Of a stretch of 64,000 nt of DNA, positions 22,223 through 52,188 are shown in pieces. Source of the stretch: Strigamia acuminata (lineage: Eukaryota > Arthropoda > Chilopoda > Geophilomorpha > Linotaeniidae); assembly GCA_949358305.1 (NCBI GenBank), contig OX442319.1:11346001-11410000 (forward strand), in the 5' to 3' direction. Within the stretch, counting starts at the first letter, position 1. Each line of letters opens with the position of its first letter. Both the position numbers and the translations under genes were made by a program. The notes under the pieces were generated by a model. The model was not told the DNA's origin and made no database searches. It worked only from the letters and a program-made list of their open reading frames with translations.

Positions 22223-22356
22223 TTTCCGCACTAATAACACTAAACACAGGTGTATAACCAGTTTATCAACACACTCACACAATCAATGTTCCTTGATGGC
22301 AATTTCCAATGTTGATATCAGCGGATTCAGTTCTATTTCTTTATCCTCGTCGCCAA

Positions 22357-26029: not shown

Positions 26030-29000
26030 TTAAACTTGATGACATTTACGTATGTAACTTTCTAGCAATTGACATAATGATAGAGCAGATATTCCAAGAA
26101 AAAAGCCAAATATTGACCCAATGTCGCAAATTAATTTGACCAATGGCAGAGAGAACTTTTCTTCAAAAATTTCTTTGAAGTTACTTTCAAGTTTAATCAT
26201 TGCCATTGCAAAATTATAATAGTTGACAAACATTTTATAATATGCAGTGAATGGTATGTAAATCGTATAATTGCATGGTGGATTGCAACCACAGCTGTGC
26301 TCAGCATCAATATTTAGGTGGACATTTAGGTATGCTTGGCGTGTCTTTTTGGCTTCAATTGATGTTTTGCAGTCAGGCAAAAGTGATGAATTGAAAAAAG
26401 GCAAACTGATTTGAATAGGAAAACTTTAATGACTGTACGTAGAATAGCAAAGATACAACCAAACCTGCACTGAATGTTTTCGTCCATTAATTTGCTTTCA
26501 AAGCAGTTCTCTTCGCACAAGTTAAATTCCTCTAATGATACGCAAGGATTTGTCGGAGTGTTCAATCTGAGTATCTACAATACATTAAGAAATTTTAGCA
26601 AAAACTTTTGTCAGCAATATTTATTTTAGTAGCTGTGTTTGAAAAACGTGTTTAGATTTGCATTTTAGAATGTTTTAATGTTGTGGACATGTCTATTGTT
26701 ATTTTTTAAGTTAGACTTGGACAACTCTCCAGCCACGCAATTAAAATATGGTAATTAAAAATGTGTTTAGTTTTAATGACTTTTCGAATTCAGCTACTGT
26801 TGATTTGCTTACCATTTGTCTGCTTAGTTTCATGTTCGTAATAGGTCTAAGTAGTTGATTTTCGGTAATTTTACAGTTAATTCTTTCTTGTGTTTTCATT
26901 AAGTAAATCTAGTAAAATAATTGTTTTACTGTATATTCTTTTAAACAAGCTTAAACGACTTTATGAATGCGCTTTCAGTAAGTACAGCATTATCTAAAGA
27001 TTATTATTATATACAGTCCGCGCCAAAAAGATAGGTGCACCCTATTTTTTCAAAGTTTCTCCGCACTCGGCACATGCAGAAAGCTGAAATTTTAATCAAA
27101 AGTGTAAAATTGTGATTGGGATGAGCTCCTGGCCGAGAGAAGTGACGGATGTCACCAGAGGTGATGGTGTTAAGATGAGATCCAAGTAACAAGTGGAAAA
27201 TAGAAGGTTTAACAGGCCAGGAATCACCTCTGATCATATGATCAAACGGACTTAACTGTATCAATACACTTTCTGCAGATGTTAAATTTGATGAAATAGT
27301 AAAGTAAAGCAAGAAATATAATTACTGAATATTGGACATGTTGTTTTTCAGTTCCCGTGTAAACTACAACAGTTGTTGCAGTTGATGGATGATATTCCAG
27401 TACATCTAGAGGTAGTAATTGGAATTAAAACATTATCTGCTGTTGAAATGATAAATAAAGGAGACTTTTGTGAATTGAAAAAGCTTTTTTGAATTGAAAA
27501 TATAAGCGGGGAAAGTCACCATGTATGTCTTTTATTTACTTATTTATTTTTTGTTGTTGGAAGATTTTAAAGGAATTACCGGATTTTACTTTGATACATT
27601 TTCCAAACACAGTATCCAAATAGGATAATTTTCCAAATGTTGGTTTAATAAGTGCCAAAGCCTGTGATAACATTGCCTTTAACATATCCTGAAATTAAAA
27701 ATCTAGTTATTTAGTACAATTCCAGATTAAAACGTTATAGCATGTAAAATGTAGTAATTGCAAATACTATTAAAACTTTTATTTTGTGTTCTTTTTGTAA
27801 AGTAAATAATCATGCTAATTGTGATGCAATAAACAACAAATAAATTCATTGAATCTGCAGTTATTTTTTCTGGTTGTCCTACCTGTGCTTCTTGAAAGTT
27901 TTCGATATCACCTGTTGCGTTCCATAATTTCTGAGCATCATTTGCAAATTCAGATGGCAAGTCAAGTAGTTCTAAAATGTCTACATTTTCAGCACTAATA
28001 ACTGTGAGATTTTTAAACGTCATCATCTTTTCCTTTTCATCTAGTATTGACTCGGGATGGCTGCACACAACAACATTTGGAATTTGGATAAATCGATCTT
28101 GAGAAAGTTCAATGGTCACGTATACAGGATAATCTACATAAGTCTTGATTCGACAGTACATAAAAAAGCATGATGACAGGAAAGAACATAATATGACGCA
28201 TCTTCTAATGTGTACAGTAGATTTTGATAGCGGTGGGATACTTCGATTACTGCGATTAGTTGTTGTCTTCCATAAACTTTTACATTTTTGAATGACATGT
28301 TTTTCCAAATGGCTTTTCTTTTTTATGTGGTAATTAGCTATTTCGAAACCACTTTGAATGATACGATAAACTGATTCAACAATTGCGATACAAGATATTC
28401 CTATATAGAAGCCCATGTAGCCGCCAATGTCACACATTAATGAAATAGAATCGTAACTAAAGTATTCTGTTAATTCAAGTATCCTGCTGGATGAGAAATA
28501 AAAGGTGCTAGTATCTGTGGTCTGATTAGTGAAGTATTGGTGAGAAGTGAAAGTAACTTTTTCACATTCTCTCGAACAATTGCAGGTATAGTGAGGATTA
28601 ACTTTAAATCCTACATCAGCGATTTCTTTTGTGTAATTGCATGCTAGTTCATTTGCAACACATCCATTTTCCTGCAAGTTAGGCAGAAATGGTAATCTGA
28701 AATTAAATTATGCTCATATTTGAAAGGATAAACAACAGACAAATAACATACTGGCATGTAAAATTTCGTTGCTTAATTTCTTGTAAGTAACAGTCCATGT
28801 GACATTTTTCCATAGTAGAGATATCTGTACAAGGATGTAATCTTCTATTCACAAACGTGTACTAAAAACAAAAGTTGAATGTCAATATTTTTATTTTATT
28901 TTATTTGGAAGCATCCACTGACAGGAGAAAATGCTTTGGTTCAAAATGTTTATTAGCAGGTAAAAGTATGCAGGATCATTAATTTGTCCTTACAGGGTAA

Positions 29001-30500
29001 GGATGGGATAGGAAAAGTAAGGTTAGGCTACTAACTTATGCTATTTTAATTTTAGAATATTGCATTAACAAACTTCATAATATTTCAATATCTGTTAATT
29101 AAATTATCTTACTTTTTTAGCAGTAAAAGAAAATATATTTTCTTCATACGTTTCTGCAAAATGCATATCTGATGATGGTACCATACTGAATGGATTGTAT
29201 TGTTTGGCATGAATGCTTACCTGTAATAGTAATGATTAGAATACACTGTATGTAGCCTTAAGATGGTTGTTACATCGTGGTTTTCTGCTTGGATGGTGTT
29301 AAGTTAAGAAATGATTGACACGTGTTCACTTTGATTTTAAAAGAGGAAGTACTACTTACTACAAAGAACAGCGCATTTCGATAGACTTTCCTCTTTTTTT
29401 CTTTTACTTTTAGCTTTGATTCAGGACCAAGTGGTAATTTTTCATCTGAAAGGGGATAATCAGTATTATTATTTAATATTAACACAAAAGCTACTTGAAA
29501 ATTGAAAATAAAATTACTATTTATAAATTTAGTTCCAATGGCATAGGGTGTTATAACGTCTCGAGGTTTAAACTTATTAGAATAGTATTTATTCCCCTGC
29601 AGAAAGAATTAGGTTTAATGGTTTTTGTGATTGCTCTCATTTTCTATTTTGGCTTGTTAACTTACGCGTTTAAAAGTTATGCTTTTTATCATTTTTGTAA
29701 AATTATATTTTTTTATTACTGTTGTGAGTTGAGTATGGTTGTCCATGAAAAACCACAAGTTATGTGTGCATACTAAAATAATAAAAGAAAAAAGTATATT
29801 AAATTAATTCAGGACTAGCATAGAAACGTGCTTCAGTCATAATTTTTTTTATAAATACTAGTAGTTTACTTTATGTAACCAGAATATTACATCTGATTTT
29901 AAATGCATGGTTTTAGCTCTTTACAGCTATAAATTTATTTACACATAAAAGCTTATGTACGGATCTGTTAGGGGCCCCATGGTCGTGGCTTCTAAACAGG
30001 AATTATTCGCCACTGAATATGCATTGATTTTTCTTAAAACTACAAATTATTGTCATGAATTCTATAACATTCAATGCAGGGCTGGTATTTTGGTGTTTGT
30101 AGGCCTCGGCCACTTTTATTCCAGAATATTATTAATTTTGATCCTCATAAAATGCATATAATTATTTACCTTTCAAGCCAGAGTTGTCTTCTGCGTATTT
30201 CATACTGTCAACTGTATCTTGTGATATAATCCGAATTGCTGGGTAATCATCAATTGCTTGCTCTGTGAAGGCTGCATCTACTTTAATAGGCTTTTTTGTG
30301 TACTGAATGATAACATTCGAACATTGGTAAATGCATAGTAATAACGCAACAATGGTCGTTAACACCCTGCTTATGCGATTTGACTTTGTAGATGGTGGAA
30401 ACAATGCGTTGTGTAGTGCTTTTTCTGTTTTGTGCACGTGGATGAAGTCTCTGGCAATTCTTTCAATTTTCCTTGCTCTCAATTTTCTTATGCGTTCCAT
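26030..30500 (-). CDS. Double-domain DEG/ENaC (pickpocket-like) channel gene, unit D
   Basis: Ten exons: 30500-30170, 29445-29360, 29220-29113, 28861-28752, 28696-27883, 27688-27580, 27405-27326, 26908-26813, 26574-26465, 26405-26030. All introns are GT-AG and the spliced frame is 739 aa. First half: TM1 at about 44-66, DYPAI at 85-89, LPFLP after exon 4, CNCSREC at about 250-256, TM2 at about 294-322 with CDIGG and GIS (311-313). A basic linker (about 323-375) leads without a stop into the second half: TM1 at about 376-397, PNVVVC at about 418-423, CEENC in exon 9, LPFFNSS, CGCNPPC, and TM2 at about 702-730 with CDIGS and GIS. Each half has the family topology of one subunit of a trimeric cation channel. 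The His-Gly gating motif usual before TM1 is absent. The 5'-UTR intron is 30510-30639. The 3' UTR holds a foldback element. Confidence 0.88.
27010..27295. mobile_element. TIR-like insertion in intron 7 of unit D
   Basis: This block is absent from intron 7 of the other units. Its left end, ACAGTCCGCGCCAAAAAGAT, looks like a transposon terminus; a matching right end is not seen, so it may be truncated. The minus-strand open frame over it shows no family signature. Confidence 0.4.
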
Positions 30501-30509
30501 GACTGAAAC

Positions 30510-31253
30510 CTGTTAGCAACAATGTGGATGTACTAGTGAGAAACGAAAACTTCTAAACTTAAACTTTGCTGATCTTGGATATTAGCTGTGAATTTCTACA
30601 GGATTACACTGAGTTTAGCCAATTCTGATTTTCTCTTACCTTATCTTGTTGTGTGGCAAACGATTAGCAACAGAATTGTCTGAAGGTTTATTGGTCTTGT
30701 TGGAACATCAAATCAAAGCTTTCTTGTTTTATTTTCGAAGAAGAGCCTTCTAAACAAGTTTGCGTGATTGAATCATGTGTCGAAATAACAATTTTGTTGG
30801 TTATTTTCTCACTAGCTGCATTCAAAAACTCTAAAACGTATGCAAAACTCGTTTCGTGTTTGTACGTGACGTGACGTGTACGTGTACGTGTACGTGACGT
30901 TATTCAATGGGAATGACGTCACCGTGTTACTGTGGTGATGCTTCTTGATTTGCAACATCCGGGCTAAATGCATTGCGTGTTCTAATTTCTTTTTTTTGGA
31001 TCCTAATTTAATTATATTATGTTTGTGTTCTTGTAAATTTTCATTTTCATTAATTTTTATTAAGTTGGAATCTAGTTTTTGCAATTTTCTTGTGTACCTA
31101 AATGCTAATCACTATTTACTTTTTGAAATTAATTAGAAAAATCTCATTAATGGTTGTGTGGGGTAAATGATGAAACCATTAGGCTTGTCGATTTATAAAT
31201 TATAATGAATGTGACATTCTGACACCACGTTGTTACTTATAAATTACCGTATT
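30510..31253 (-). promoter_or_regulatory. 5' region of unit D with a private CRE-bearing insertion
   Basis: A 5'-UTR intron (30510-30639) with the array-conserved GTAAGAGAA donor is followed by upstream sequence shared with unit E. Between about 30815 and 30930 unit D alone has an insertion holding repeated ACGTG/CACGT blocks (30865-30899) and a full palindromic TGACGTCA-type site (about 30914). Whether these act in transcription is inference. Confidence 0.5.
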
Positions 31254-32462
31254 TTAACACTAGAACTGCCGGAATATCTGACTACCTAGAACTGCCGAAA
31301 CGGGTCATTATGACCCGTTACATATAAATGTCGTTTTCAGCCATTTTAAGCCAATGAAACAATGCCACATTGTTTCCTCTGCCCTGCCATAGTTTTCTCT
31401 GCCTTACCACGTGTATGTTCGTTTATTATTTCCATCGTAAACCCGCACTAGAAGATGAATTCTACTGCCGTTGCCGAATTAAAGGCTGAATAACAACATA
31501 TTCCCCCAATGATTTGTTAGCAGGTCGGGAATTATCTTTCCCCAAGTATGGGAAACCATTTACTAAATATTTTGTTTCTAAATCTGCAGCTAGCCAAAAC
31601 TTCAAAACAAATTTATCCGGTTTGTTGCTCATATATTATGTGAATCCACACCTGGCTTTACTTGGAAACAATTGCTCGTCAACGGTTATATTTACACCTG
31701 GGTTGTAATGCATCTGACAATTTTCTATAAATGCAAGTGCAAACTTATCTTCCTTCAAACCGGCACTTCAATGGGACTTTTCATCAAACCGTAAAAACTT
31801 CGAATTTTCTTGGAATCGAAGTCTCGAATAGTGTCTCGAAAAATTGGCAATCCCCATTTATTAGACCAATAACTGTCTACAGATAAATTAGAATTAAAAG
31901 CACCTCGTGCCTAAACTAAACCAATAAATTTCTCCAATTCCTCAAACGTTAAATCCCACGAATTGTTATTCAACCATTGTTGAGCCTCAACAATTGTGCA
32001 GTTTTGAATATGGCGTAACATCCTTTTGTTGATAAATAATGATAAAGCAGAATTTGCACTTTCTATCGAAACATTTCGCATGGCAGCTGAGCTTGGATCC
32101 ACTCTACCACAGGTGAAAACATTGTGTTGAGCCCTTCTACCTACATCAGGCAACGATTGATTCACAATTTCCCAAAACGTGCCAACTCTAGCAATTGTAT
32201 GGTTTGGGTCCGCAGAGACCAATTCAGTGTCGTCATCGTTATTCTCATTTGGCTGCCCTTGGCCTTGTCCACGCGCTTGTCTTTCCCCTCGCTCGTACCC
32301 TCGTCCTTGCCCTCGTTCTAACCCGCGCCCATGCTCGCGCCCGGGCCTATGCTCGCGCCCGCGCCCGTGCCCGCGCTCAGACACTGGTTCTGCTGTTTCG
32401 GAAATTTCACTGCAATGACTACATGATGAATCTGATGAACTATCTTCGTTATCATTTTTCAA
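31254..32462 (-). pseudogene. piggyBac transposase, truncated and decayed
   Basis: An open frame from 32462 to 31911 gives the N-terminal part: acidic Ser-rich start, an unusual RG-rich low-complexity run (about residues 30-70), then the DDE_Tnp_1_7-type region with LSLFINKRMLRHIQNCTIVE and FEELEKFIGLV. Past a stop the next frame continues with SYWSNKWGLPIFRD, then NITVDEQLFPSKARCGFT (containing the first catalytic Asp in the TVDEQL context), a stop, and PDKFVLKFWLAADLETKYL up to about 31470. The rest of the catalytic core is missing. TTAACACTAGAACTGCCG at 31254 is a likely element terminus. In unit E the matching TTAA is unoccupied. Confidence 0.75.
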
Positions 32463-32528
32463 AGTCGCAATCGGAATCCTCTGAATCTGATTCGTTTTCT
32501 GAATTTAAATGCATGGTTTTTAGCTCCT

Positions 32529-33115
32529 GTTAGCAAACCTGTTAGCAACTATGTGTGTGCACTAGTCACAAACAAAAACGTGTAAACTTTGCACAGGATT
32601 GTACTAACTTGTGAGTTTAGCTAATTTGGATTTTCTCTTACCTCAGCTTGTTGTGTGGCAAAAGGTCAGCAACAGAATGTGTCAAGGCTTATTAGTCAAA
32701 ATCTTATAATACACAATTTATGATGACGTTGGAACATCAAATCATTGCTTGTTTGTATTATTTACGAATGGAGGCGTTCCAAACATGTTTGAGTAATTGA
32801 TCGTGTAGGTCAAAATTTGGTTTATTCTGTTGGTTCTGTGTGATTGCAGTGATGTTTATTTATTTGGAACATTTGAGTTAAATATTTGCATGTTGTAATC
32901 ATTTTTTTATGATTTTGATTAGATTTTGTTATGCTTATATTGGTTTTGTATCTTTCATATCGGGTCGTTGTATTTCTTTTAAATTTTTATCAAGTTGGAA
33001 ACAGGTTTTAAGCAACGTCTAATTTCTGCAATTTCCTGATGTAAACAGTTATTTCTATTTACTTTGTGAAATTTATATTTTAACTCTGAGGTATAAACCA
33101 AAATAAAAATAAGAA
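32529..33115 (-). promoter_or_regulatory. Orphan 5' region of a lost sixth channel gene
   Basis: The sequence aligns by eye along its whole length with the upstream region of unit A (52198-52427 and 54002-54300) and of B and C. It includes the CTAACAG acceptor before the missing exon 1, the GTAAGAGAA 5'-UTR donor, and the distal block ending AACCAAAATAAAAATAAG. No coding exon follows on the minus-strand downstream side; a piggyBac remnant takes its place. Confidence 0.75.
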
Positions 33116-33236
33116 TAAAATAATGTGGCCAGCCTGAAATCCTTACTAAAACCCATAGATAATCTATGGAGAATAATGACCGGACAAGTTTGTGCCAACA
33201 AGAGACAATTTTCTACCATTGATGAATTAAAAACTA

Positions 33237-33966: not shown

Positions 33967-34085
33967 TACTGTGATTGACGGATACTGGGGTAACATCTCT
34001 TCTGAAACTCTGGAAAATTTTATTGTATTTACAGAAATTCGTGTTTTTGAAGTAATCAAACGTAATGGAAAAATAATTGGTCAAT

Positions 34086-34875: not shown

Positions 34876-37800
34876 TTAGTTACATTTACGTAAGTAACTT
34901 TCTAGCAATTGAAATAATGATAGAGCAGATGCTCCAAGAAAAAAGCCAAATAACGACCCAATGTCGCAAATTAATTTGACCAATGGCAGAGATAACTTTT
35001 CTTCAAAAATTTCTTTGAAGTTACTTTCAAGTTTAATTATTGCAATTGCTACATTTACAATGTTATCAAATATTTTATAATATGTAGTGAATGGTATGTA
35101 AATTGTATAAATGCATGGTGGATTGCAGTCGCAGCTGTGCTCAGCATCAATATTTAGATGGACATTGAGGTATGACCGGCGTGTCTGTTTGGCTTCAATT
35201 GATGTTTTGCAGTCAGGCAAATGTGAAGAATTGAAAAAAGGCAATCTAATGTGAATACGAAAAGTTTAATGACTACGTAGAATAGGAAGAATACGACCAA
35301 ACCTGCACTGAATGTTTTTTTCCTTTAGTTTGGTTTCAAAGCAGTTCTCTTCGCACAAGTTAAATTCCTCTAATGATACACAAGGATTTGTCGGAGTGTT
35401 CAATCTGCGTATCTACAATCCATTAAGAAATTTTAACAAACATTTGTCAACATCATCAACAGCTACCGTTTATTTGCTTACCATTTGTCTACTTAGTTTT
35501 ATGTTCGTAATAGGTATAAGTAGTTGATTTTCAGTAATTTTAAAGTTAATTCTTTCCTGTGTTTTCATTAAGTAAATCTAGAAAAATACAGTAGGCATAT
35601 TTTGAAGTCTTCAGGTGTTAAATGGGATGTAATGTAATCAACCAAATGCAAGAAGTAGTAATAGTAAAGCAAGAAATGTAAATTTAGGCTCCTAGAACTG
35701 GCATGATATTTGGTTCGGCAAGATTTTAAGACTAAAGGCTACCAGGTAGTTTACAATGCTACGAAATTTGACTGTTAGGCACAAAGTTCTCAATGCAGTA
35801 GCTGCTTTCAAAAATAAAAATACAATTTTAGTTTAAGTGTATTTTAACATTAAATTTTAATTTATTATATTAATGTTGAAGTAAAACACAATATTTTTAT
35901 TTTTGATTGCCACTAGTGAAACGAATACAGAATTGAAATTTTTGTTTTGTTTTTCTTGACACTTTACGCGAAATAATGCTTTTCAATATTTTTAAAATTT
36001 ATTTCAACGCAAATATAAATTTTGTGCCAACATCAACCATATTTATGTGAATTACTGAATATTGGACATGTTGTTTTTCATTTCCCATGTTAATTATGCC
36101 TGTTAATGCAGTTGATGGATGATATTCCATGATATCTGGAAGTACTAATTAAATTAAAACATACTGCTTTTGAAATGGTAAATACGGAGGTCGGAGAACA
36201 AGAGATTTTTGTTAATTGAAGAAGCTTATTTGAATTAAAACTGTCAGCAAAGAAAGTTATCATGGTCGTTGTTGGAAGATTGAAAGGAATTACCGGATTG
36301 TACTTTGATACATTTTCCAAAAACTGTATCCAAATAGGACAATTTTCCGAATTTTGGTTTAACAAGTGCTAATTTGTCTGATAAGACTTCTGTTAGTAAA
36401 TCCTGAAATTTAAAATCTTGTTATTTGGTACACTTCTAAATCAAAAATTTTTAGCGTGTAAAATATTGTTATTGCAAATATGACTGACATAGTTACAAAT
36501 ATTTACTTGGTTTTGTATTAATTTTGCAAAGAAAAAGATTATGCAAATTGTGATTCAATAAACAGAAAAACATGCAGTGGATGTGCAGTTAATTTTTTGG
36601 TGTACAACCTGTGTTTCTAGAAAGTTTTCGATATGACCTGTTGCGTTCCATAATTTCTGAGCATCATTTGCAAATTCAGATGGCAAATCAAGTAGTTCTA
36701 AAAGATCTACATTTTCAGCACTAATAACTGTGAGATTTTTAAACATCATCATCTTTTCCTTTTCATCTAGTATTGACTCGGGATAACTGCACACAACAAC
36801 ATTTGGAATTTGGATAAATCGATCTTGAGAAAGTTCAATGGTCACGTATACAGGATAATCTACATAAGTCTTGATTCGACAGTACGTAAAAAAGCAAGAT
36901 GACAGGAAAGAACATAATATGACGCATCTTCTAATTTGTACAGTAAATTTTGATAGCGGTGTGATACTTTGATAACTGTGATTAGTTGTTGTCTTCCATA
37001 ATTGTTTACTTTTTCGCATGACATGTTTTTCGAAACGGCTTTTCTTCTTTCTGTGGTAATTAGCTATTTCATAACCATTTTGAATGTTACGACAAACTGA
37101 TTCAACAATTGCGATACAAGATATTCCTACATAGAAGCCCATGTAGCCGCCAATGTCACACATTAATGAAATAAAGTCGTAACTAAAGTATTCTGTTAAT
37201 TCAAGTATCCTGCTGGATAAGTAATAAAAGTTGCTGGTATCTGTCAACTGATTAGTGAAGTATTGGTGAGAAGTATAGGCAATTTTTTTGCATTCTCTTG
37301 AACAATTGCAGGTGTAGTGGGGATTAACTTTCCAACCTATATCAGCGATTTCTTTGGAGTAATTACATGCTAATTTGTTTGCAACACATCCATTTTCCTG
37401 CATCTTAGGCAGAAATGGTAATCTGAAATTAAATTATGCTTACCGTATACTAGTATTAGAAAGAACATGGGATTTTTGGAGAAAGGTTTGGATTTTGTGA
37501 AATTACCCACTGTTTACTATACTGTCATTGTCCAAATGGCTGGTGCTCGGTTGGGGTTGATCGTGCATTTTTTTTTGTTTAAATGTGAGAATTGTCTCAA
37601 TCTCATCCACACACACAGACACACCAAGATAAACCCATAAACACACAAACACACACTCTTCTGCATATCATCATTTTGATGGATATAAATTAAAAACAAC
37701 AAAATAATAACATACTGGCATGTAAAATTTAGTTGCTTAAATTCTTGTAAGTAACATTCCAAGTGGCATTTTTCCATTGTAGAGACGTCTGTACAAGGAA

Positions 37801-39417
37801 ACAATTTTCTATTCACAAACGTGTACTAAAAACAAAAGTTAAATGTTAATAAATTTTGTTTGATTTTATTTGGCAGCATCTCTTGAAAATGCTTTGATTC
37901 AAAATGTTTATTAGTTGGTAAAACTATCTAGGATCATTATATGCTAGGGTTAATAATTTGTTCTTACGAGGTAAGGATGGGTTAGGAAAAGTAAGGTTAG
38001 GCTAGTATGCTATTTTAATTGTACAATGTTGCATTAACAAACTTCATAATGCTTCAATATCTGTTAATTAAATCATCTTACTTTTTTAGCAGTAAAAGAA
38101 AATATATTTTCTTCATACAGTTCTGCAAAAAGCATATCTGATGGTGGTACCATAATGAATGGATTGTATTGTTTTGCATGAATGCTTACCTGTAATAGTA
38201 ATGATTAGAATATACTGTATGTAGTGTTGTTTTCTGCTTGGATTGGTTCAGATAAGAAATGATTGGCACATGATCACTTTGATGTTAAAACAGGAAGTAC
38301 TACTTACTGCGAAGAACGGAGAAATTGAATGGACTTTTCTTTTTTTTTCTTTTACTTGTAGTTTTGATTCAGGACCAAGTGGTAATTTTTCATCTGAAAG
38401 GGGATAATCTGTTTTACTATTTAATATTAACACAAAAGCTACTTGCAGTGGAAATTGAAAATAAAATTACTATTTGTAAATTCAGTTGCCATGGCATAGG
38501 ATGTCAGAACCTCTCGAAGTTTAAACTTATTAGAATAGTATTTATTCCCCTACAGAAAGAATTAGGTTTAATGATTTTTGTGATTCTTTTTCGTTTCGGC
38601 TTGATAACTTACTCGTTTAAAAGTTATGCTTTTTATCATTTTTGTGAAATTAAATTTACTTATTACGGTTGTGAGTTGAGTATGGTTATCTATGAAAAAC
38701 CCCAAGTTATGCGTGCATTCTAAAATTGAAAAAAATGCATATTAACACTAGAATGGCCAGAGCGGTCATTTTGACCAACACAGCCATTTTAACCAGCTGT
38801 AGCAATAAACCCAATGGGTTTACAATGCTGTTATTTTTTTACTTTTAAAACATCATAAATCAGCAAATGTGGCATTTTTCTTTTAAAAAATAATGAAAAA
38901 AAAAAGAGAATTGACCTAGAACGGCCGAAAGCGGTCAAAATGACCGCTCGAACTAACGTGGGGGTTAATAGGTAAGTGGCGCCATCTATCAAGAAGCAAT
39001 GGTGACATATGTAGGCCTCAGCCACTTTGATTTCAGAATATTATTAATTAAAACAAGACCTTCATCAAATGCAGAGAATTATTTACCTGCCAAGCCAGAG
39101 CTGTCTGATATATATTTCATACTGTCATCTGTTTGAATTGATACAATCTGAATTGCTGGGTAATCACCAATTGCTTGCTCTCTGAAGGCTGCATCTACTT
39201 TAATAGGCTTTTTTGTGTACCGAATGATAACATTCGAACATTGATAAATGCATAGAGATAACGCAACAATGGTCGTCAACACCCGGCTTATGCGTTTTGA
39301 TTTTGAAGATGGTGGAAACAATGCGTTGTGTAGTGCTTTTTCTGTTTTGTGCACGTGGATGAACTCTCTGGCAATTCTTTTAATTTTCCTTGCCCTCAAT
39401 TTTCTTATGCGGTTCAT
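34876..39417 (-). CDS. Double-domain DEG/ENaC (pickpocket-like) channel gene, unit C
   Basis: Exons: 39417-39087, 38393-38308, 38189-38082, 37825-37716, 37422-36609, 36402-36294, 36135-36056, 35577-35482, 35412-35303, 35245-34876; 737 aa with no break. Same two-subunit architecture as unit D. Notable differences: YPES for HPES after the second PNVVVC; the tail of exon 5 reads NFLETQ with donor GTTGTA; exon 10 uses AGA (Arg) at the split codon; intron 8 is only 69 bp because most of it is deleted. Intron 1 carries the TTAA-bounded MITE shared with unit B. The 5'-UTR intron is 39427-39556. The ECD of each half keeps the family cysteine clusters (CNCSREC and CDCNPPC), and both TM2 helices keep CDIG and a GxS filter (GIS, GAS). 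Confidence 0.88.
38742..38968. mobile_element. TTAA-bounded piggyBac-type MITE in intron 1 of unit C
   Basis: TTAACACTAGAATGGCC at the left and GTGGGGGTTAA at the right. Inside, the motif CTAGAA(T/C)GGCC followed by CGGTCA occurs twice in direct orientation, as in the piggyBac remnant terminus at 31254 (CTAGAACTGCCG twice). Same site and sequence as the element in unit B. Confidence 0.65.
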
Positions 39418-39426
39418 GACTGGAAC

Positions 39427-40475: not shown

Positions 40476-43400
40476 TTAAGATTTACTAAAGTTACATTTA
40501 CGTATGTAAGTTTCTAGCAATTGAAATAATGATAGAGCAGATATTCCAAGAAAAAAGCCAAATATTGACCCAATGTCGCAAATTAATTTGACCAATGGCA
40601 CAGACAACTTTTCTTTAAGAATTTCTTTGAAGTTACTTTCAAGTGTAATTATTGCAATTGCTGCACGTAATACATTGCTATTAAACACTTTATAATATGC
40701 AGTGAATGGTATGTAAATCGTATAATTGCATGGCGTTTTGCAACCACAGCTGTTCTCAGCATCAATATTTAGATGGACATTGAGGTATGACCGGCGTGTC
40801 TGTTTGGCTTCAATTGATGTTTTGCAGTCAGGCAAATGTGATGAGTTGAAAAAAGGCAATCTAATGTGAATACGAAATATTTAATGACTACGTAGAATAG
40901 CAAGAATACGACCAAACCTGCACTGTATGTTTTCTTCTATGAATTTGGTTTCAAAACAGTTCTTTTCGCACAAGTTAAATTCTTCTAATGATACACAAGG
41001 ATTTGTCGGAGTGTTCAATCTGAGCATCTATAATACATTAAAAAGTTTTAGCAAAACTTGTGTCGGCATTTGTTCATTACTTATTTTAGTAGCTGTATTT
41101 GAAAAGCGTGATTAGATTTGCATTTTAAAATGTTTTCTTGTTTTCATGTTTTGGACATGCCTATTGTCATTTTTTAAGTTAGACTTGGACAACCCCCAGA
41201 CACGCAAATAAAATGTGATGATTTAAAATGTGTTTAGTCTTAATGATTTTTCGAATTCAGCTACTGTTGATTTTCTTACCATCTGTCTGCTTAATTTTAA
41301 GTGCGTAGCAAGGCTAAGTGGTGGATTTTCGGTAAATTTTAAGTTAATTCTTTCTTGTGTTTTCATTAAGTAAATCTAGAAAAATACAGTAGGCACATTC
41401 ATAAAGTTATTTAAAAATTGTTTTACTGTATATTCTTTTAAACAAACTTAAACGATTTTATGTTGAAACTGGCGTTTGAAAAGGAACAATTAAGATAAGG
41501 GGGTTTTGAGGTGACGCCATCATGTTGGGTCACCACCGCACTGCACTCGCAAAATAAAATAACCGCACAACCCTAGTGGTTATCATGTTATGCTTATGCG
41601 CTTATTTCTAACTTATAAGTTAGAAATAATGTATGCATAAATACATCGAAATTGAAATTGAAATTGTAGATGACAAAATGTATGACCATGACAGGATAGT
41701 ATGGCTTATTTTGAATTATTTGTATTCAACACTGGAAAAATTATGGCTTTACAAATTGTAAATGTTCCAAAAGTTAATGTGGAAATGTGAGCTTTTTAAT
41801 TTTTGTAAAGTTGTTGTAAAATCGAAGAAAAATTAGACATTTAACATTGAATTTAATCACTTTGTAAATTTCATGTGTAAATCAGACATTTACATTAAAT
41901 TTAATTTTCTTGTAAATGATTTGGAAAGTTAATGTATGAGTTTATCACCAGCTGGCGATATATTTCAAAAATAAAAAACTAATAAATTTACATTTGTTAA
42001 ATATGAGGTTGGTTCTATCAATTTTACTTCAAAACTTAATTAGAATATCATTGTTGGAGTTAAATGAAACAAAAAGGTGATTCGGTAATTTAACATTTTA
42101 ATTTGGTTTTAGAATTTGTAACAACCAGGACATTGTTGTGAGCTTGAATCTTTTGTCTTCTGTTGATTTTGTTCACTTTTTTGATTGAGGCTATGAATCC
42201 TCTGCATATCTTATGTGAGATTTGTATGAAAATTTCATGGGATTTATTTTCATGGGATTTATTTTCATGGGATTTATTTTCATGGGATTTATTTTCATGG
42301 GATTTATTTTCATGGGATTTATTTTCATGGGATTTATTTTCATGGGATTTATTTTCATGGGATTTATTTTCATGGGATTTATTTTCATGGGATTTATTTT
42401 CATGGGATTTATTTTCATGAGATTTATTTTCATGGAATAATGGAAATATTTACATGTAAATATTTTGAAATAAATTATAATAAATTTAGAAGTTAAAAAT
42501 TAAAAAAAGAATTAAAATTAAATTTATTGTTAAAACTGACAAATTTAAATTAAATTAAAATAAAATTTATTGTTAAATCTGGAAAATTCGAAATTTACAA
42601 ACTGTAAAGTTATTTTGCGTGTTCATTGTAAAATGTCTTTTTAATTTTGTAAAGTTATTGTTTAAAACAAAAATTTACAATCTTTGTAAATGTGACTTTA
42701 AAATGCCGAAAGTTCAAATTTACATTAACTTTTCAGCAATTAAAAGACGTGTAAAGCCATATTTTTTTCAAGTGCAAATCCTTTGTTTTCCTTCTAATCA
42801 GTCGAAATAAAAGAAAAATTTAAACACAAAATTTAAATATGTGCATGTAATGTAATGTGATGTATTGTAATCAACCAAATGCATCAAGTAGTAAAGTAAA
42901 GGAAGAAATGTAATTACTGAATATTGGACAAGTTGTTTTTCATTTCCCATTTTAGCTATGTAAGTTAATGCAGTTGATGGATGATATTCCATGATATCTA
43001 GAAGTAGTAATTGGAATTAAAACACTAGCTGCTGTTGAAATGATAAATAAAAGAGATTTTTGTGAATTGAAAAAGCTTTTTTTAATTGAAAATATAAGCA
43101 AGGAAAGTCACCATGTACGTCTTTCATTTATTTATTTATTTTTTGTTGTTGGAAGATTTTATAGGAATTACCGGATTTTATTTTGATACATTTTCCAAAC
43201 ACAGTATCCAAATAGGACAATTCACCAAAGGTTGGTTTAATAAGTGCCACATCCTGTGATATGATTGCTGTTAATATATCCTGAAATTAAAAGTCTAATT
43301 ATTTAGTACAATTCTAGATCAAAAAGTTATAGCATTTAAAACATAGTCATTGTAAATATGATTTACAAAGGTACAAATACCATTAAAACTTTTGTTTTGT

Positions 43401-46055
43401 GTTCTTTTTAAAAGTAAATAATCATGCTAATTGTGATGCAATAAGCAAAAAATAAATGCATTGGATGTGCAGTTATTTTTTCTGGTGTCCTACCTGTGCT
43501 TCTTGAAAGTTTTCGATATCACCTGTTGCGTTCCATAATTTCTGAGCATCATTTGCAAATTCAGATGGCAAGTCAAGTAGTTCTAAAAGGTCTACATTTT
43601 CAGCACTGACAGCTTTGATATTTTTAGAAATCATCATCTTTTCCTTTTCATCTAGTATTGACTCGGGATGACTGCATACAACAACATTTGGAATTTGGAT
43701 AAATCTATCTTGTGACAGTTCAATGGTCACGTATACAGGGTAATCTACATAAGTCTTGATTCGACAGTACATAAAAAAGCAAGACGACAGGAAAGAACAT
43801 AATATGACGCATCTTCTAATTTTAGATTTTGATAGCGGTGGGAGACTTTGATAACTGCGATTAGTTATTGTCTTCCATAATTGTTTACTTTTTTGCATGA
43901 CATGTTTTTCAAAATGGCTTTTCTTCTTTCTATAGAAATTAGCTATTTCATAACCATTTTGAATGTTATGACAAACTGATCCAACAATTGCAATACAAGA
44001 TATTCCTACATAGAAGCCCATGTAGCCGCCAATGTCACACATTAATGAAATAAAGTCGTAACTAAAGTATTCTGTTAATTCAAGTATCCTGCTGGATGAG
44101 AAATAAAAGTTGCTAGTTTCTGTGAACTGATTAGTGAAGTAATGGTGAGTAGTGAAAGTAACTTTTTCGCATTCTCTCGAACAATTGCAGGTATAGTGAG
44201 GATTAACTTCCCATCCTATATTACTGATTTCTTTTGTGTAATTGCATGCTAATTTATTTGCAACACATCCATTTTCCTGCATCTTAGGCAGAAATGGTAA
44301 TCTGAAATTAAATTATGCTCATATTTGAAAGGATAAACAACAGACAAATAACATACTGGCATGTAAAATTTCGTTGCTTAATTTCTTGTAAGTAACAGTC
44401 CACGTGACATTTTTCCATAGTAGAGACGTCTGTACAAGGATGCAATCTTCTATTCACGAACGTGTACTAAAAACAAAAGTTGAATGTCAATATGTTTTGT
44501 TGGATTTTAGTTGGAAGCATCCATCGACAGGGGAAAGGCTTTCGTTCAAAATTTTTATTGGCAAGTAAAAGTATGTAGGATCATTAATTTGTCCTTACAA
44601 GGTATGGATGGGTTAGGAAAAGTAAGGTTAGGCCAGTATGCTATTTTAACTTTAGAATGTTGCATTAACAAATTTTATAATGATTTAATATCTGTAAATG
44701 AAATCATCTTACTTTTTTAGCAGTAAAAGAAAATATATTTTCTTCATACAGTTCTGCAAAATGCACATCTAATGATGCTACCACAGCGAATGGATTGTAT
44801 TGTTTTGCATGAATGTTTACCTGTAATAGTAATGATTAGAATATACCGTTTGTAGCATTAAGATTGTTCTTAGATTGTGGTTTTCTGCTTGGATTATGAA
44901 ATGATTAACGCGTGCTCACTTTGATGTTAAAACAGGAAGTACTACTTACTGCAAAGAACGGAGAAGTTGGATCGAGTTTTCTTTTTTTTTGTTTTACTTG
45001 CAGTTTTGATTCAGGACCAAGTGGTAATTTTTTATCTGAAAGGGATAATCAGGTTTGCTATTAAATATTTAGACATAAGCTACTTGCAGTAGAAATTGAA
45101 AATAAAATTACTATTTGTTAATTTAGTTCCAATGGCATAGGGTGTCATAAAGTCTTGAGGTTTAAACTTATTAGAATAGTATTTACTCCCCTGCCGAAAG
45201 AATTAGGTTTAATGATTTCTGTGATTGCGCCAATTTCAATTTCGGTTTGTTAACTTACTCGTTTAAAAGTTATGCTTTTTATCATTTTTGTGAAATTAAA
45301 TTTACTTATTACTGTTGTGAGTTGAGTATGGTTATCTATGATAAACCATAAGTTATGCGTGCATTCTAAAATAAAAAAAAGCATATTAACACTAGAATGG
45401 CCAGAGCGGTCATTTTGACCACCACAATAAACCCAATGGGTTTATAATGCTGTTAGTTTTTTACTTTAGCTGATTTATGATGCTTTACATTATAAATTAG
45501 CAAACGTGGCATTTTTCTTTAAAAAATAATGAAAAAAAAAGGATTGACCTAGAACGGCCGAAACCGGTCAATTTGACTGCTCGAACTAACGTGGGGGTTA
45601 ATAGGTAAGTGGCGCCATCTATCAAGAAGCAATGGTAACATGTAGGCCTCAGCCACTTTGATTTCAGAATATTACGGAGTATTAATTAAAACATGACCTT
45701 CATCAAATGCATAGAATTATTTACCTGCCAAGCCAGAGCTGTCTGATATATATTTCATACTGTCATCTGTTTCTTGTGATACAATCTGAATTGCAGGGTA
45801 ATCATCAATTGCTTGCTCTGTGAAGGCTGCATCTACTTTAATAGGCTTTTTTGTGTACTGAATGATAACATTCGAACATTGGTAAATGCATAGAGATAAC
45901 GCAACAATGGTCATTAACACCCGGCTTATGCGTTTTGATTTTGAATATGGTGGAAACAATGCGTTGTGTAGTGCTTTTTGTGTTTTGTGCACGTGGATGA
46001 ACTCTCTGGCAATTCTTTCAATTTTCCTTGCCCTCAATTTTCTGATGCTGTTCAT
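40476..46055 (-). CDS. Double-domain DEG/ENaC (pickpocket-like) channel gene, unit B
   Basis: Exons: 46055-45725, 45035-44950, 44820-44713, 44466-44357, 44301-43494, 43280-43172, 42997-42918, 41375-41280, 41027-40918, 40860-40476; 740 aa, fully open. Exon 5 is 6 nt shorter than in the other units (linker reads PLSKSKIRR), and the protein ends CNFSKS. Topology, CNCSREC and CGCKTPC clusters and both GIS filters are kept. Intron 7 is 1.5 kb because of an insertion with a 15-bp tandem repeat; intron 1 carries a MITE. The 5'-UTR intron is 46065-46194, with GTAAGAGAA donor. Confidence 0.88.
41602..41629. repeat. Perfect 28-bp palindrome
   Basis: TTATTTCTAACTTA and its exact complement meet with no spacer, in intron 7 of unit B just left of the TIR-bounded element. 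Confidence 0.9.
41730..42774. mobile_element. TIR-bounded nonautonomous element in intron 7 of unit B
   Basis: Left end CACTGGAAAAATTATGGCTT, right end the imperfect complement of CACTTGAAAAAAATATGGCT. The interior is AT-rich with many TGTAAA/TTTACA motifs. No clear target duplication, so the family is undecided. Confidence 0.5.
42233..42436. repeat. 15-bp tandem repeat, about 13.5 copies
   Basis: Almost perfect copies of CATGGGATTTATTTT. As 15 is divisible by 3, several frames stay open across it (for example a repeating MKINP on the minus strand); these are not taken as genes. Confidence 0.95.
45386..45601. mobile_element. TTAA-bounded piggyBac-type MITE in intron 1 of unit B
   Basis: Orthologous to the element at 38742-38968: same ends, same neighbours (followed by TAGGTAAGTGGCGCCATCTA) and a few internal differences. 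It was therefore present before units B and C split. Confidence 0.65.
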
Positions 46056-46064
46056 GACTGGAAC

Positions 46065-47141
46065 CTGTTAGCAACAATGTTGGTGTACTAGTGACAAACG
46101 ACAACTTCTAAACCTAAACTTTGCTGATCTTGGATATTAGTTGTGGATTCACACGGGATTACTCTGAGTTTAGCCAATTCTGATTTTCTCTTACCTTATC
46201 TAGTTGTGTGGCAAAGGATCAGCAACATAATTGTGTCAAGGTTTATTAGTCAATATATTTTTCAGTACACAATTTAAGATCATTTTGGAACATCAAATCA
46301 TAGCTTGTTTGTATAATTTACTAACTTGTTTGAGTAATTGATTATGTATGTCGAAATTGGGTTTTTTTTGTTGGTTCTGTGTGATTGCAATGATGTTTAT
46401 TAATTTGGAACATTTGAGGCAAATATTTGCACGTTGTAATTATTTTTTTCTATGATTTTGATTAGATTTTATTATACTAATATTGGTTTTGTATCTTTCA
46501 TATCGGGTCGTTTTATATCTTTTAAATTTTTATCAAGTTCGTTACAGTTTTTAAGCAATTTCCGCAATTTTCTGATGTAAACAGTTATTTCTATTTACTT
46601 AGTGAAATTTAGATTTTAACTCTGAAAGTATAAACCAAAATAAAAATAAGAAACAAAATGATTCATTGTGCATAACTCCTCATTGTTTATTAATTTACAA
46701 AATCCCTCAACAAATTATTCTTAAAACACAATTTTACAATTTTACAAGTTCACTGACTTTCTAAACTTTTGAAATGTAGTTGTACAAGTGACACAAGCAT
46801 CAGCTTATCACGTTCTTATTCCTTTCTTTCTTTGTGTAAATTACATGGTTGGCATGAAAACAGTTGGAATAAATCAGTTGCTTGTTGGATTGAAAGGTAA
46901 CTTTATTTAAATGTATTTTGATAACAGTACATAATATTGATGGTTAATTGATACTGAAATTCAACTGTGGTCAACTGCATTGTGATGTCCACCTGGCATT
47001 TGGTTTTTAAGATTATAACTAGGACCAAAGTTCAGTAATGTGTGTGTGAATTAAAGAAACATCTACCACTGAGTTATGATTTTGTTATGTAGATAGTAGT
47101 TTTGGGTCATTAAAAAATGAACGAAAATAACATTTTCTCAT
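46065..47141 (-). promoter_or_regulatory. Unit B upstream region and unit A 3' flank
   Basis: The 5'-UTR intron 46065-46194 is followed by the conserved upstream block to about 46660, a MYND-3'-flank-like scrap (TTACAAAATCCCTCAACAAA at about 46696-46715), then the unit A 3' flank with AATAAA at 46902-46907, 235 bp beyond the stop. Confidence 0.5.
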
Positions 47142-50100
47142 TTAAGATTTACTAAAGTTACATTTACGTAAGTAACTTTCTAGCAATTGAAATAATAATA
47201 AAGCAGATATTCCAAGAAAAAAACCAAATATTGACCCAATGTCGCAAATTAATTTGACCAATGGCACAGACAACCTTTCTTCAAGAATTTCTTTGAAGTT
47301 ACTATCAAGTGTAATTATTGCGACTGCTATATTTAAAGTGCTTATAAACATTTTATAATATGCAGTGAATGGTATGTAAATCGTATAATTGCATGGTGGA
47401 TTGCAACCACAGCTGTGCTCTGCATCAATATTTAGGTGGACATTGAGGTATGACCGGCGAGTCTGTTTGGCTTCAATTGATGTTTTGCAGTCAGGCAAAT
47501 GTGACGAGTTGAAAAAAGGCAAACTAATGTGAATACGAAATCTTTAATGACTAGGTAGAATTGCTAGAAAACTACCAAACCTGCACTGTATGTTTTCTTC
47601 CATTAATTTGTTTTCAAAACAGTTCTTTTCGCACAAGTTAAATTCCTCCAATGATACGCAAGGATTTGTCGGAGTGTTCAATCTGAGTATCTATAATACA
47701 ATAAAAAAAATTAGCAAAACTTTTGTCAGCAATTGTTTATTACTTATTTTAGTAGCTGTATTTGAAAAGCGTGTTTAAATTTGCATTTTAAATTGTTTTC
47801 TTGTTTTAATGTTGTGGACTTTTCTACTATCATTTCTTAGTTAGACTTGCACAACGCCGCAGACACAGAATTAAAATAGGGCGATTAAAAATGTGTTTTA
47901 GTCTTAATAACTTTTCGAATTCAGCTACTATTTATTTGCTTACAATCTGTCTGCTTAGTTTTAAGATCGCACTAGGTCTAAGCAGTTGATTTTCGGTAAG
48001 TTTATAGTTAATTCTTTCTTGTGTTTTCATTAAGTAAATCTAAAAAAACACAGTAGGCACATTCATAAGGCTGACATGACAGTCATGTGACTAGAATGTG
48101 CATGGTTTATTTGTCAAAGCCCTTCACAGGCTCCCATTGGGAATAAAGCAGTGGGAGAAATATCAATAAACAGAAAAAATTAATAGGTTAGCAGTTGCTG
48201 TTCTTTTTCCTGGACTGCACCCTTAGGAATGACAAATACAGTTCACATCTTCAGGTGTTAAATGTGATGTAATGTAATCAACCAAATGGATCAAGTAGGA
48301 AAGTAAAGCAAGAAATGTAATTACTGAATATTGGACAAGTTGTTTTTCATTTCCCATGTAAGCTACGCTAGTTAATGCAGTTGATGGATGATATTCCAGG
48401 ATATCTAGAAGAAGTAATTGGAATTATAAGATTAGCTGCTGTTGAAATGATAAATAAAAGAGGCTACTGTGAATTGAAATAGCTTTGTTGAATTGAAAAT
48501 ATAAGCAAGGAGGTCATTATGTATGTTGGTTATTAATGTATTTATTTTTTGTTGTTGGAAGATTTTAAAGGAATTACCGGATTGTACTTTGATACATTTT
48601 CCAAACACAGTATCCAAATAGGACAATTTTCCAAATGTTGGTTTTATACGTGCAATTTCGTTTGATATGAATTCTTTTATTACATTCTGAAATTAAAAGT
48701 CTAGTTATTTAGTAAAATTCTAGATTAAAAAGTTATAGCATATAGCTAAAATAAAATAATTGCAAATATGATTTACAAAGGTTCAAATACCATTCAAACT
48801 TTTGTGTTTTGTTCTTTTTGCAAAGTAAATAATCATGCTAATTGTGATGCAATAAACAAAAAGTACATGCATTGGATGTGCAGTTATTTTTTCTGGTGTC
48901 CTACCTGTGCTTCTTGAAAGTTTTCGATATCACCTGTTGCGTTCCATAATTTATGAGCATCATTTGCAAATTCAGATGGCAAGTCAAGTAGTTCTAAAAG
49001 GTCGACATTTTCAGCACTAATAACTGTGAGATTTTTAGACGTCATCATCTTTTCCTTTTCATCTAGTATTGACTCGGGTTGACTGCACACAACAACATTT
49101 GGAATTTGGATAAATCTATCTTGAGAAAGTTCAATGGTCACGTATACAGGGTAATCAACATAAGTCTTGATTCGACAGTACATAAAAAAGCAAGATGACA
49201 GGAAAGAACATAATATGACGCATCTTCTAATTTTTACAGTAGATTTTGATAGCGGTGGGATACTTTGATAACTGTGATTAGTTGTTGTCTTCCATAATTG
49301 TTTACTTTTTTGCATGACATGTTTTTCGAAACGGCTTTTCTTCTTTTTGTGGTAATTAGCTATTGCAAAACCATTTCGGACGTTACGACAAACTGATTCA
49401 ACAATTGCGATACAAGATATTCCTACATAGAAGCCCATGTAGCCGCCAATGTCACACATTAATGAAATAAAGTCGTAACTAAAGTATTCTGTTAATTCAA
49501 GTATTCTGCTGGATAAGTAATAAAAGCTGGAAGTGTCTGTGAACTGATTAGTGAAGTAATGGTGAGTGGTGAAAGTAACTTTTTCGCATTCTCTCGAACA
49601 ATTGCAGGTATAGTGAGGATTAACTTCCCATCCTATATCACTAATTTCTCTGGTGTAATTGCATGCTAATTTATTTGCGATACATCCATTTTCCTGCATC
49701 TTAGGCAGAGATGGTAATCTGAAATTAAATCATGCTCATGTTTGAAAGGATATGGGACCTCTGGGGAAAGGTTTGGATCTTGTAAAATTACCCACAGATT
49801 ACTATCGTCATTAAACCATTCATTTCATATATGTGTCTCATTGGGAGTATTAATTAAAACTATAATTTATCATTGAATGCACTTTTTACAGTAGAGATCA
49901 TAAACACACAAACTAATAAGTTTACATTTAAATGTTGTTTAAATATATTTAGTTCAAATTAGTATTTGAAAGCAACTCCTGAAGCAACTGATATTCATAT
50001 CATCTGGGTTGGGGGTGGACTTGTCTGTTGGGCATTCATGCATTTTTCAAGGGGCTGGTCATAAATTTGTTTTTGTTTAAATCAGAAAATTATTCGAAAT

Positions 50101-52188
50101 TCATCCACACACTCACATCACAAGCTTCCACACATAAATTAACCTTCCCATAGCCAGGGCTGTTTACTTCACATGTGCAGCCAGGGTCGGTCATTTCTAC
50201 CTTCTTTTAAAAAATCCTTCTGCACATGTGCACAATCACATTTTTCCTGGTGCAATCGCATTTTTCCTGGTAAAAGCACATGCTTTAGGACTAATTTTAA
50301 TACGCCACCTAGTGCAAACAGATGGCAAAGTGGTGTACGGCACTCCCATTACGGGTGTTTTATGTTATAAATATTAAATTATCTTCATAATAATTGAAAA
50401 ACTATTCGTATTTAGACATTATAAAATAAGAAAAAAAAGTTTTTGAGGAATAAAAGTTAACCTCATTAATTAATTTTCAGGAAAAAAAGAATTACAGTGA
50501 TTTTTTCCACTTCTGTAATTTTTTTGACCCACCATGGCTATGGGAAGGTTAAAGACAACAGACAAATCACATACTGGCATGTAAAATTTCTTTGCTTAAT
50601 TCCTTGTAAGTAACAGTCCATGTGGCATTTTTCCATAGTAGAGATGTCTGTACAAGGATACAATCTTCTATTCACAAAGGTGTACTAAAAACAAAAGTTC
50701 AATGTCAATATTCTTTGTTTGATTTTATTTGGAAGCATCCATCGACAGGGGAAAATGCTTTCGTTCAAAATGCTTATATGTTCATAATTGTCGTGATCGA
50801 GACATTAAACATAAACATATGCAAATTAGATACGAAAATATATATCAATTAATAAATAATGTGACCCGTGCATGATAAACTGAATTCTTTTTTATGTCAA
50901 ACCTATGTTGAAACTTGCAAAATTAATATTGTAAAACGCGTGTGAACATTGAGCCGATCAAACTGGAAGTTAACAAAATCGAACTTATTGAAAACATAAC
51001 AATAATATACTAGGACCAATAATTTGTCCTTACTAGGTAAGGATGGGTTAGAAAAAGTAAGGTTAAGCTAGTACGCTATTTTAATTTCAGAATCTTGCAT
51101 TAATAAACTTCATAATGTTTCAATATCTGTTAATTAAATCATCTTACTTTTTTAGCAGTAAAAGAAAATATATTTTCTTCATATAGTTCTGCTAAATGCA
51201 TGTCTGATGATGGTACCATAATGAATGGATTGTATTGTTTCGCCTGAATGTTAACCTGTAATAGTAATGATTAGATTATGCCGTACACAGCATGTTGTTA
51301 GATCGTGGTTTTCTGCTTGGATTATGTTAAGATAAGAAATGATTGACACGTTCTCACTTTGATGTTAAAACAGGAAGTACTACTTACTACAATGAACGGA
51401 GTAGTTGGATGGACTTTGCTTTTTTCTTTTCCTTTTACTTGTAGTTTTGATTCAGGACCAAGTGGTAATTTTTCATCTGAAAGGGAATAATCAGATTCGC
51501 AATTAAATATTAACGCAAAAGCTACTTGCAGTAGAAATGTAAAATAAAATTACTATTCATAAATGTAGTTGAAATGGCGTAGGGTGTCGTAACCTCTCGA
51601 GATTTAAACTTATTAGAATAGTGTTTAGTCCCCTGCAGAAAGAATTAGGTTTAATGATTTGTTTGATTGCGCTCAATTTCTAATTCAGCTTGTTAACTTA
51701 CTCGTTTAAAAGTTATGCTTTTTATCATTTTTGTAAAATTATATTTTTTTATTACTGTTGTGAGTTGAGTGTGGTTGTCTATGAAAAAGTACAAGTTCTG
51801 TGTGCATACTAAAATAAAAATAAAAAGAATATATAATCAATTCATAAAATGCAAAGAATCATTTACCTGCCAAGCCAGAGTTGTCTTCTTCGTATTGCAG
51901 ACATTCATCTGTATCAAGTGATGTCATCTGAATTGCTGGGTAATCACCAATTGCTTGGTCTCTGAAGGCTGCATCTACTTTAATAGGCTTTTTTGTGTAC
52001 TGAATGATAACATTCGAACATTGGTAAATGCATAGAGATAACGCAACAATGGTCGTTAACACCCGGCTTATGCGAGTTGATATTGAAGATGGTGGAAACA
52101 ATGCATTGTGTAGTGCTTTTTCTGTTTTCTGCACCTGGATGAACTCTCTGGCAATTCTTTCAACTTTCTTTGCCCGTATGCTGTTCAT
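47142..52188 (-). CDS. Double-domain DEG/ENaC (pickpocket-like) channel gene, unit A
   Basis: Exons: 52188-51867, 51476-51388, 51255-51148, 50684-50575, 49718-48905, 48686-48578, 48404-48325, 48039-47944, 47690-47581, 47523-47142; 739 aa with no break. Exon 1 is 9 nt shorter (starts MNSIRAKKVERIAREF) and exon 2 is 3 nt longer than in the other units. First half: TM1, DYPAIQ, cysteine-rich ECD, CNCSREC, TM2 with GIS; basic linker (KKKKSRFEKH and onward); second TM1 with PNVVVC; ECD with CEKNC, CGCNPPC; TM2 with GIS. It is the copy next to the MYND gene. Unlike B-E its upstream region has lost the 5'-UTR donor through a deletion of about 60 bp, and a Tc1 element lies 240 bp upstream of the ATG. 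Confidence 0.88.
50139..50552. mobile_element. piggyBac-type MITE in intron 4 of unit A
   Basis: TTAACCTTCCCATAGCCAGG at the left and the complement of TTAACCTTCCCATAGCCATG at the right, so 414 bp with TTAA duplications. Holds GGTCGGTCATTTCTACC near the left end and a CTCF-like GCACTAGGTGGCG (minus strand) near 50311-50323. Confidence 0.8.

Follow-up and report, generated by a model that had tools for sequence, protein, structure and literature searches.

The window analysed here is a stretch of 64,000 nucleotides from the centipede Strigamia acuminata (contig OX442319.1, positions 11,346,001 to 11,410,000), which we take to lie on chromosome 6. It holds five gene units that each join two subunits of the DEG/ENaC channel family in one reading frame. 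This arrangement, first proposed in a sequence-only reading of the window, is strongly supported by the gene structure, by Pfam matches, by comparison with the solved channel BRTNaC1 and by hundreds of paralogous fused exons. We consider it likely that each gene specifies one protein of about 800 residues that contains two subunits and acts as part of a channel. Such a protein would comprise two non-identical DEG/ENaC subunits, with four transmembrane (TM) helices, two ectodomains and a basic cytosolic linker of about 50 residues, and would be transcribed, translated and delivered to the membrane as one whole.

The central feature is a single open exon of 808-814 nucleotides (nt) that runs from TM2 of one subunit into TM1 of a second in all five units, as the sequence-only reading had described (Table 1); unit 5 (3404-64) falls beyond the coordinates given in that reading. 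Its further statement that the visible splice sites are GT-AG holds for every intron in our models, and the ends that it gave, the ATG at 52188 (start of unit 1) and position 26030 (stop of unit 4), agree with them. Its protein lengths of 737-740 amino acids (aa) had to be corrected to 799-802 aa. Two exons of the N-terminal half (N-half), of 107 and 79 nt and together about 62 aa, had been missed, and their loss fits the shorter lengths. In the alignment of the units these exons have AG/GT borders and fitting phases in five of five units. With them included, 12-exon models of all four complete units read through without a stop or frameshift. Intron phases, taken from exon lengths, follow the pattern 0,1,0,0,2 in both the N-half and the C-terminal half (C-half), and the N-half has one additional phase-1 intron.

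The linker within the fused exon has 50-52 residues in the units of the window, with 10-12 Lys or Arg and only 1-2 Asp or Glu. Linker and TM1 together measure 58-72 aa in the 35 fused exons inspected, and Pfam ASC matched as two stretches in all nine fused exons scanned, with E-values of up to 1 per stretch. By Kyte-Doolittle hydropathy alone, the two inner TM helices score as borderline (1.39-1.67, against ectodomain maxima of 0.64-1.46); their assignment is by homology. Units 4 and 5 are identical over at least 566 nt (27820-28385 versus 1-566), from just past the TM2 filter to the window end, and differ by 2-7 per 50 nt before this stretch; the block is read as the trace of a recent gene conversion or duplication.

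Each half has two TM helices flanking a large cysteine-rich ectodomain. This description is based on cysteine positions together with, for the C-half, the alignment to BRTNaC1 and, for the N-half, hydropathy (TM1) and alignment (TM2). Pfam ASC (PF00858) matched the full protein as two stretches, and scored 43.5 bits with the N-half and 61 bits with the C-half (cut-off 23.6). The nearest solved relative, with a resemblance in sequence only, is BRTNaC1 (Broad-range thermal receptor 1; PDB 8ymr-8ymx). It aligns with the C-half over 27-380, from TM1 to TM2 (3.3e-17), and with the later part only of the N-half (231-387; 1.3e-9). Both halves also matched PDPNaC1 from the centipede Scolopendra (PDB 9jf7), the N-half in its later part (4.9e-9) and the C-half at 6.6e-9. 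On these matches the units are members of the DEG/ENaC family with a new subunit layout. No His-Gly (HG) was found in the N-terminus, the linker or elsewhere in units 1-5. We take His-Gly before TM1 to be the mark of vertebrate-type ASIC and ENaC proper, and thus do not assign the units to either.

Both halves carry pore signatures with few exceptions, GG...YxGxSC in N-halves and GSI...GxS in C-halves. The TM2 filter reads GxS in 34 of 35 N-halves and 16 of 18 C-halves (SxS once and AxS twice in the others). Since the filters are largely kept on both sides, both halves probably line a pore. The gate motif separates the halves: its second Gly is Gly in all 35 N-halves and all eight unfused exons compared, and Ser in all 18 C-halves; its Asp is replaced by Asn in six of the 35 N-halves and one of the 18 C-halves. 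The available part of the PDPNaC1 report names Asp372 and Gly375 as gate residues (PMC12714832), and by spacing these would correspond to the D and the second G of DIGG. Pooled over units 1-4, the ratio of nonsynonymous to synonymous change (pN/pS) is 0.70 in the N-half and 0.56 in the C-half; in the channel parts of the fused exon it is 0.48 and 0.29, the latter for the TM1 part.

The layout extends far beyond the window. Protein-query searches of the genome (237,517,015 bases in 157 contigs) gave at least 359 stop-free matches spanning TM2, linker and TM1, 351 of them on eight large contigs. Each search listed 141-150 candidates, so that 359 is a lower bound on fused exons, and the matches counted are not proven intact genes. 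The fused exon of the window, used as query, gave at least 143 matches at identities from 100% to 28%; diverged members gave at least 148, 142, 150 and 145, and a further fused exon, L049, at least 141. The union took 128 of the 143 matches to the window query, 146 of 148 and 140 of 150 from two diverged queries and 131 of 141 from L049; the diverged-query searches with at least 142 and at least 145 matches were not entered. Rows were merged within 1 kilobase (kb) from hand-typed kilobase starts, and rows with internal stops and cut matches were dropped. Six loci with a stop in one query and none in another were kept (C6 at 844, 1016, 2157, 2189 and 7689 kb; C1 at 44349 kb). Counted matches may fall short of the exon ends, although every row kept spans TM2, linker and TM1. 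Haplotype duplicates may be present among the near-identical copies and among the matches on small contigs (8 of 359).

Identity falls to 24% among 25 aligned fused exons, and on five contigs 226 of the 335 distances between neighbours are shorter than 100 kb. The description of the units as a tandem family is thus correct locally and too narrow as a statement of extent, as the window holds five of the at least 359 fused exons. Large tandem arrays together with relaxed purifying selection (the pN/pS of 0.56-0.70 in units 1-4) are features that it shares with arthropod chemoreceptor families, which are further marked by expression in sensory neurons. When neighbourhoods of 20 diverse fused exons were searched by tblastn with the window proteins, at least one N-half exon upstream and one C-half exon downstream were found on the same strand in 15, and both outermost exons in 10.

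Several observations weigh against one intact two-subunit protein. The gene models were built by hand, and the first part of the N-half is diverged, the Pfam match beginning at profile position 127 and the BRTNaC1 match at N-half residue 231. AlphaFold gave a model of low confidence for the fused exon (predicted local distance difference test score, pLDDT, 57.9; predicted template-modelling score, pTM, 0.26), and it is in this low-confidence model that helices fall at 83-126, 129-146 and 158-188. With the queries used, one or both halves were missing from five of the 20 neighbourhoods, and both from that of L048. Some copies are broken or cut, among them L012 (TGA in the fused exon), L027 and L028. 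L012 is the next copy beyond the window, and C6:11894 kb is also among the broken or cut copies. The linker has a pN/pS of 1.26 on few changes, with the frame kept and no clear constraint on its residues. In addition, an extra start inside the gene may give a separate C-half protein, as 33 of 35 fused exons carry a Met in linker plus TM1 (at least three of them solely within TM1), and the fused protein may be cleaved after translation.

The seemingly unconstrained linker residues and the Met positions would fit genes that make two separate subunits after all: the exon would be read-through sequence that harbours a promoter, a start or a poly(A) site, or the protein would be cut in its linker. 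We regard this as decidedly improbable. For two proteins a stop and a start would be required and an open linker would not, yet the linker is open in at least 359 copies, and linker and TM1 keep a steady length in the exons inspected. No poly(A) signal (AATAAA or ATTAAA) was found in the linkers of the five units. In at least five of the 35 fused exons (units 4 and 5, L027, L046 and L048) the linker has no Met before TM1, and the C-half there thus lacks a start of its own within the exon. The broken copies L012, L027 and L028 could also be taken to suggest that the layout is an artefact of assembly or annotation, or else a fusion that is recent, local and functionless. This is extremely unlikely: the layout recurs on eight large contigs at the low identities given above, and pN/pS is below 1 in both halves. 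An artefact of this one window is ruled out by the same layout genome-wide. We also ruled out that two independent genes met by chance in one exon, given the 58-72 aa of linker plus TM1 and the at least 359 fused exons.

A single protein with two subunits raises the question of how it would enter a trimer. DEG/ENaC channels, which conduct cations and are usually sensitive to amiloride, are generally held to be made of three separate subunits, although their stoichiometry is a matter of long debate in which artificial concatemers are a frequent tool. The sequence-only reading had concluded that the assembly rule must differ. This is not required: one fused protein could occupy two adjacent places around a three-fold pore, with the third taken by a DEG/ENaC protein that has a single subunit, which keeps the ordinary trimer, and unfused genes are present in the same genome. 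We tentatively favor such a 2+1 trimer, as a sensory cation channel with fixed subunit order, while giving it somewhat less than even chances. Artificial ASIC1a dimers yielded currents (PMC4529235) and, in the accessible portion of another study, fixed-order concatemers with 19-residue linkers form functional trimers (PMC10329638), so a linker of about 50 residues looks long enough.

Alternatively, three fused proteins could form two adjacent trimers, one of N-halves and one of C-halves or both mixed, tied together by the linkers. Largely kept filters in both halves, and a pore signature proper to each, would be expected if like packs with like. However, the 2+1 trimer predicts equal conservation as well, and we know of no two-pore DEG/ENaC structure; we find this twin pore unlikely. 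Two fused proteins could also make one channel, with three of the four halves as a trimer and one left out, or with all four as a tetramer. Currents were obtained from artificial ASIC1a dimers, trimers and tetramers alike, and the authors of that work argue for a tetramer, as far as the available text of that report goes (PMC4529235). If one half were regularly excluded, loss of its filter would be expected, yet both halves largely keep theirs, and other work describes trimers (PMC10329638 and PMC12714832, in the parts available). This reading, too, seems to us improbable. A broader proposal is that these genes hold the first natural covalently linked subunits in a trimeric channel superfamily, now a large gene family with a new assembly rule. 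This rule would be either the twin pore of three fused proteins or a set arrangement in which N- and C-halves hold positions that are not equivalent, the one half with a Gly gate and the other with a Ser gate. We hold that proposal to be doubtful, if a little less so than either arrangement of fused proteins alone.

How the fused gene arose can be approached through a tree of the TM2 region, built from 35 N-halves, 18 C-halves, eight unfused exons and BRTNaC1 (the unfused loci L001-L008 and BRTNaC1 being treated as one group, S). The 35 N-halves, which also served for the Met and filter comparisons, include near-copies. Left out of them were L009-L011, L013-L017 and L022 (the same loci as window units or L029-L032) and L012 (split by a stop), and a short C-half match of L047 was left aside. 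N-halves form one group (support 98/89) and C-halves another (100/94), and some subgroups recur in both halves (L043 with L044, and L039 with L041). Separate groups of N- and C-halves are consistent with a single joining in the main lineage, after which the pair was copied as a unit. We rejected the possibility that a single gene duplicated internally shortly before the family expanded, since the two kinds of half stay apart in the tree and the unfused rows fall between them (with weak support).

We suspect that two neighbouring, related subunit genes lying head to tail became one, the terminal exon of the leading gene continuing into the initial exon of its neighbour, and that the fused gene then multiplied as a unit. 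Such an origin is probable; the shared intron phases and the extra intron of the N-half are what a joining of two neighbouring related genes would leave. Unfused genes are found in the same genome: TM2 exons end after TM2 in L001-L008, and a TM1 exon without TM2 is present in L002 and L003. L006 possibly pictures the state before fusion: some 330 nt beyond its unfused TM2 exon lies an open frame that contains TM1 of an apparent next gene. The region C10:2.0-5.0 Mb holds 39 of 150 TM2-exon matches among the matches listed (a tally by eye), and none of the at least 359 fused exons is located on C10. This region is probably an array of single-subunit DEG/ENaC genes, which would be candidate partners.

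L049 (C4:11999620-12000580) represents a second, very different lineage with fused TM2, linker and TM1, and has a canonical FPTITIC motif after TM1. Among the matches listed for it, 131 of 141 cover both TM regions and are free of stops, and the first set contains none of them; one sequence of this lineage was read, and the remaining rows rest on the search table. The tree leaves the first half of L049 outside the N-halves. Enforced joining is not rejected (approximately unbiased test, p-AU 0.378, with ten near-copies removed from the N-half set). The L049 lineage may or may not stem from the same fusion as the main family.

Table 1. Fused exons, gene models and added exons of the five DEG/ENaC units in the window
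Feature	Position	Strand	Details
Fused exon, unit 1	48905..49718	-	814 nt; end of ectodomain 1, TM2, basic linker, TM1, start of ectodomain 2
Fused exon, unit 2	43494..44301	-	808 nt; linker two residues shorter, frame kept
Fused exon, unit 3	36609..37422	-	814 nt
Fused exon, unit 4	27883..28696	-	814 nt; two Pfam ASC stretches in one frame; linker without Met before TM1
Fused exon, unit 5	64..877	-	814 nt; linker same as that of unit 4, without Met before TM1
Unit 1	47142..52188	-	complete, 801 aa; exons 52188-51867, 51808-51702, 51632-51554, 51476-51388, 51255-51148, 50684-50575, 49718-48905 (fused), 48686-48578, 48404-48325, 48039-47944, 47690-47581, 47523-47142 (including stop)
Unit 2	40476..46055	-	complete, 802 aa; exons 46055-45725, 45365-45259, 45190-45112, 45035-44950, 44820-44713, 44466-44357, 44301-43494 (fused), 43280-43172, 42997-42918, 41375-41280, 41027-40918, 40860-40476
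Unit 3	34876..39417	-	complete, 799 aa; exons 39417-39087, 38719-38613, 38549-38471, 38393-38308, 38189-38082, 37825-37716, 37422-36609 (fused), 36402-36294, 36135-36056, 35577-35482, 35412-35303, 35245-34876
Unit 4	26030..30500	-	complete, 801 aa; exons 30500-30170, 29772-29666, 29596-29518, 29445-29360, 29220-29113, 28861-28752, 28696-27883 (fused), 27688-27580, 27405-27326, 26908-26813, 26574-26465, 26405-26030
Unit 5	64..3404	-	ends at window edge after exon 7; exons 3404-3074, 2266-2160, 2090-2012, 1954-1869, 1729-1622, 1368-1259, 877-64 (fused)
Two N-half exons added to the earlier models	29772-29666 and 29596-29518 (unit 4)	-	counterparts in the other four units

Other features of the window lie around and within the units. 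Long open frames at 5767-11010, 18125-22282 and 61023-63998 represent one BEL/Pao and two Gypsy-like long terminal repeat (LTR) retrotransposons, and a Tc3/mariner-type transposase frame (52660-53517) lies just upstream of unit 1. Between units 4 and 5 are two stretches of an AAR2 splicing-factor gene (12478-13368, minus strand). A short-period tandem repeat that is open in several reading frames occupies 42093-42499, in the unit 2 intron between exons 9 and 10. An open frame of 596 residues at 57865-59652 (minus strand) had no Pfam match at 0.001, and an Rfam scan of the window gave no match.

Other channels have several subunit units in one polypeptide. K2P channels, two-pore channels and voltage-gated sodium and calcium channels do so with four-fold pores, where duplication divides four evenly; in the units described here, two does not divide three. 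In having two subunits per polypeptide, the units depart from the DEG/ENaC norm of a trimer built from separate subunits. BRTNaC1, to which the C-half aligns as a whole subunit and the N-half in its later part, has one subunit per polypeptide (a chain of 431 residues), whereas the units have two; gating by heat and protons characterises thermal receptors of its type. PDPNaC1 is likewise a DEG/ENaC channel that matches both halves; it is described in the available part of its report as a homotrimer of single subunits (PMC12714832), and the C-halves here have Ser at the position of its Gly375 in all 18 cases. A parallel in construction is with engineered ASIC concatemers, in which a C-terminus is joined to an N-terminus through a cytosolic linker and of which artificial dimers conduct, according to the accessible text (PMC4529235). 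Those concatemers were made in the laboratory; the units are genomic, their natural linker is longer, and the two subunits that they join differ from each other. We found no such layout in the open literature, in keeping with the sequence-only reading, which knew of no described family; subscription papers were mostly outside the search, and annotated two-domain proteins may exist.

In arthropod chemoreceptor systems, large tandem families serve tuning, and the fused genes could likewise form the tuning part of a receptor. We infer a sensory role from the size of the family, its arrays, its relaxed selection and its two nearest solved relatives, both myriapod channels (for BRTNaC1, according to the part available of PMC12804983). 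One of these two relatives was found in antennal sensory neurons, as stated in the accessible part of PMC12714832.

A naturally occurring dimer, unable to fill a trimer evenly, would make the rule of assembly directly testable, in its partner, its order and the number of its pores. The genome offers hundreds of natural variants of a linked subunit pair, and these would constitute a receptor-like family of hundreds of genes in a group of animals whose senses are little known.

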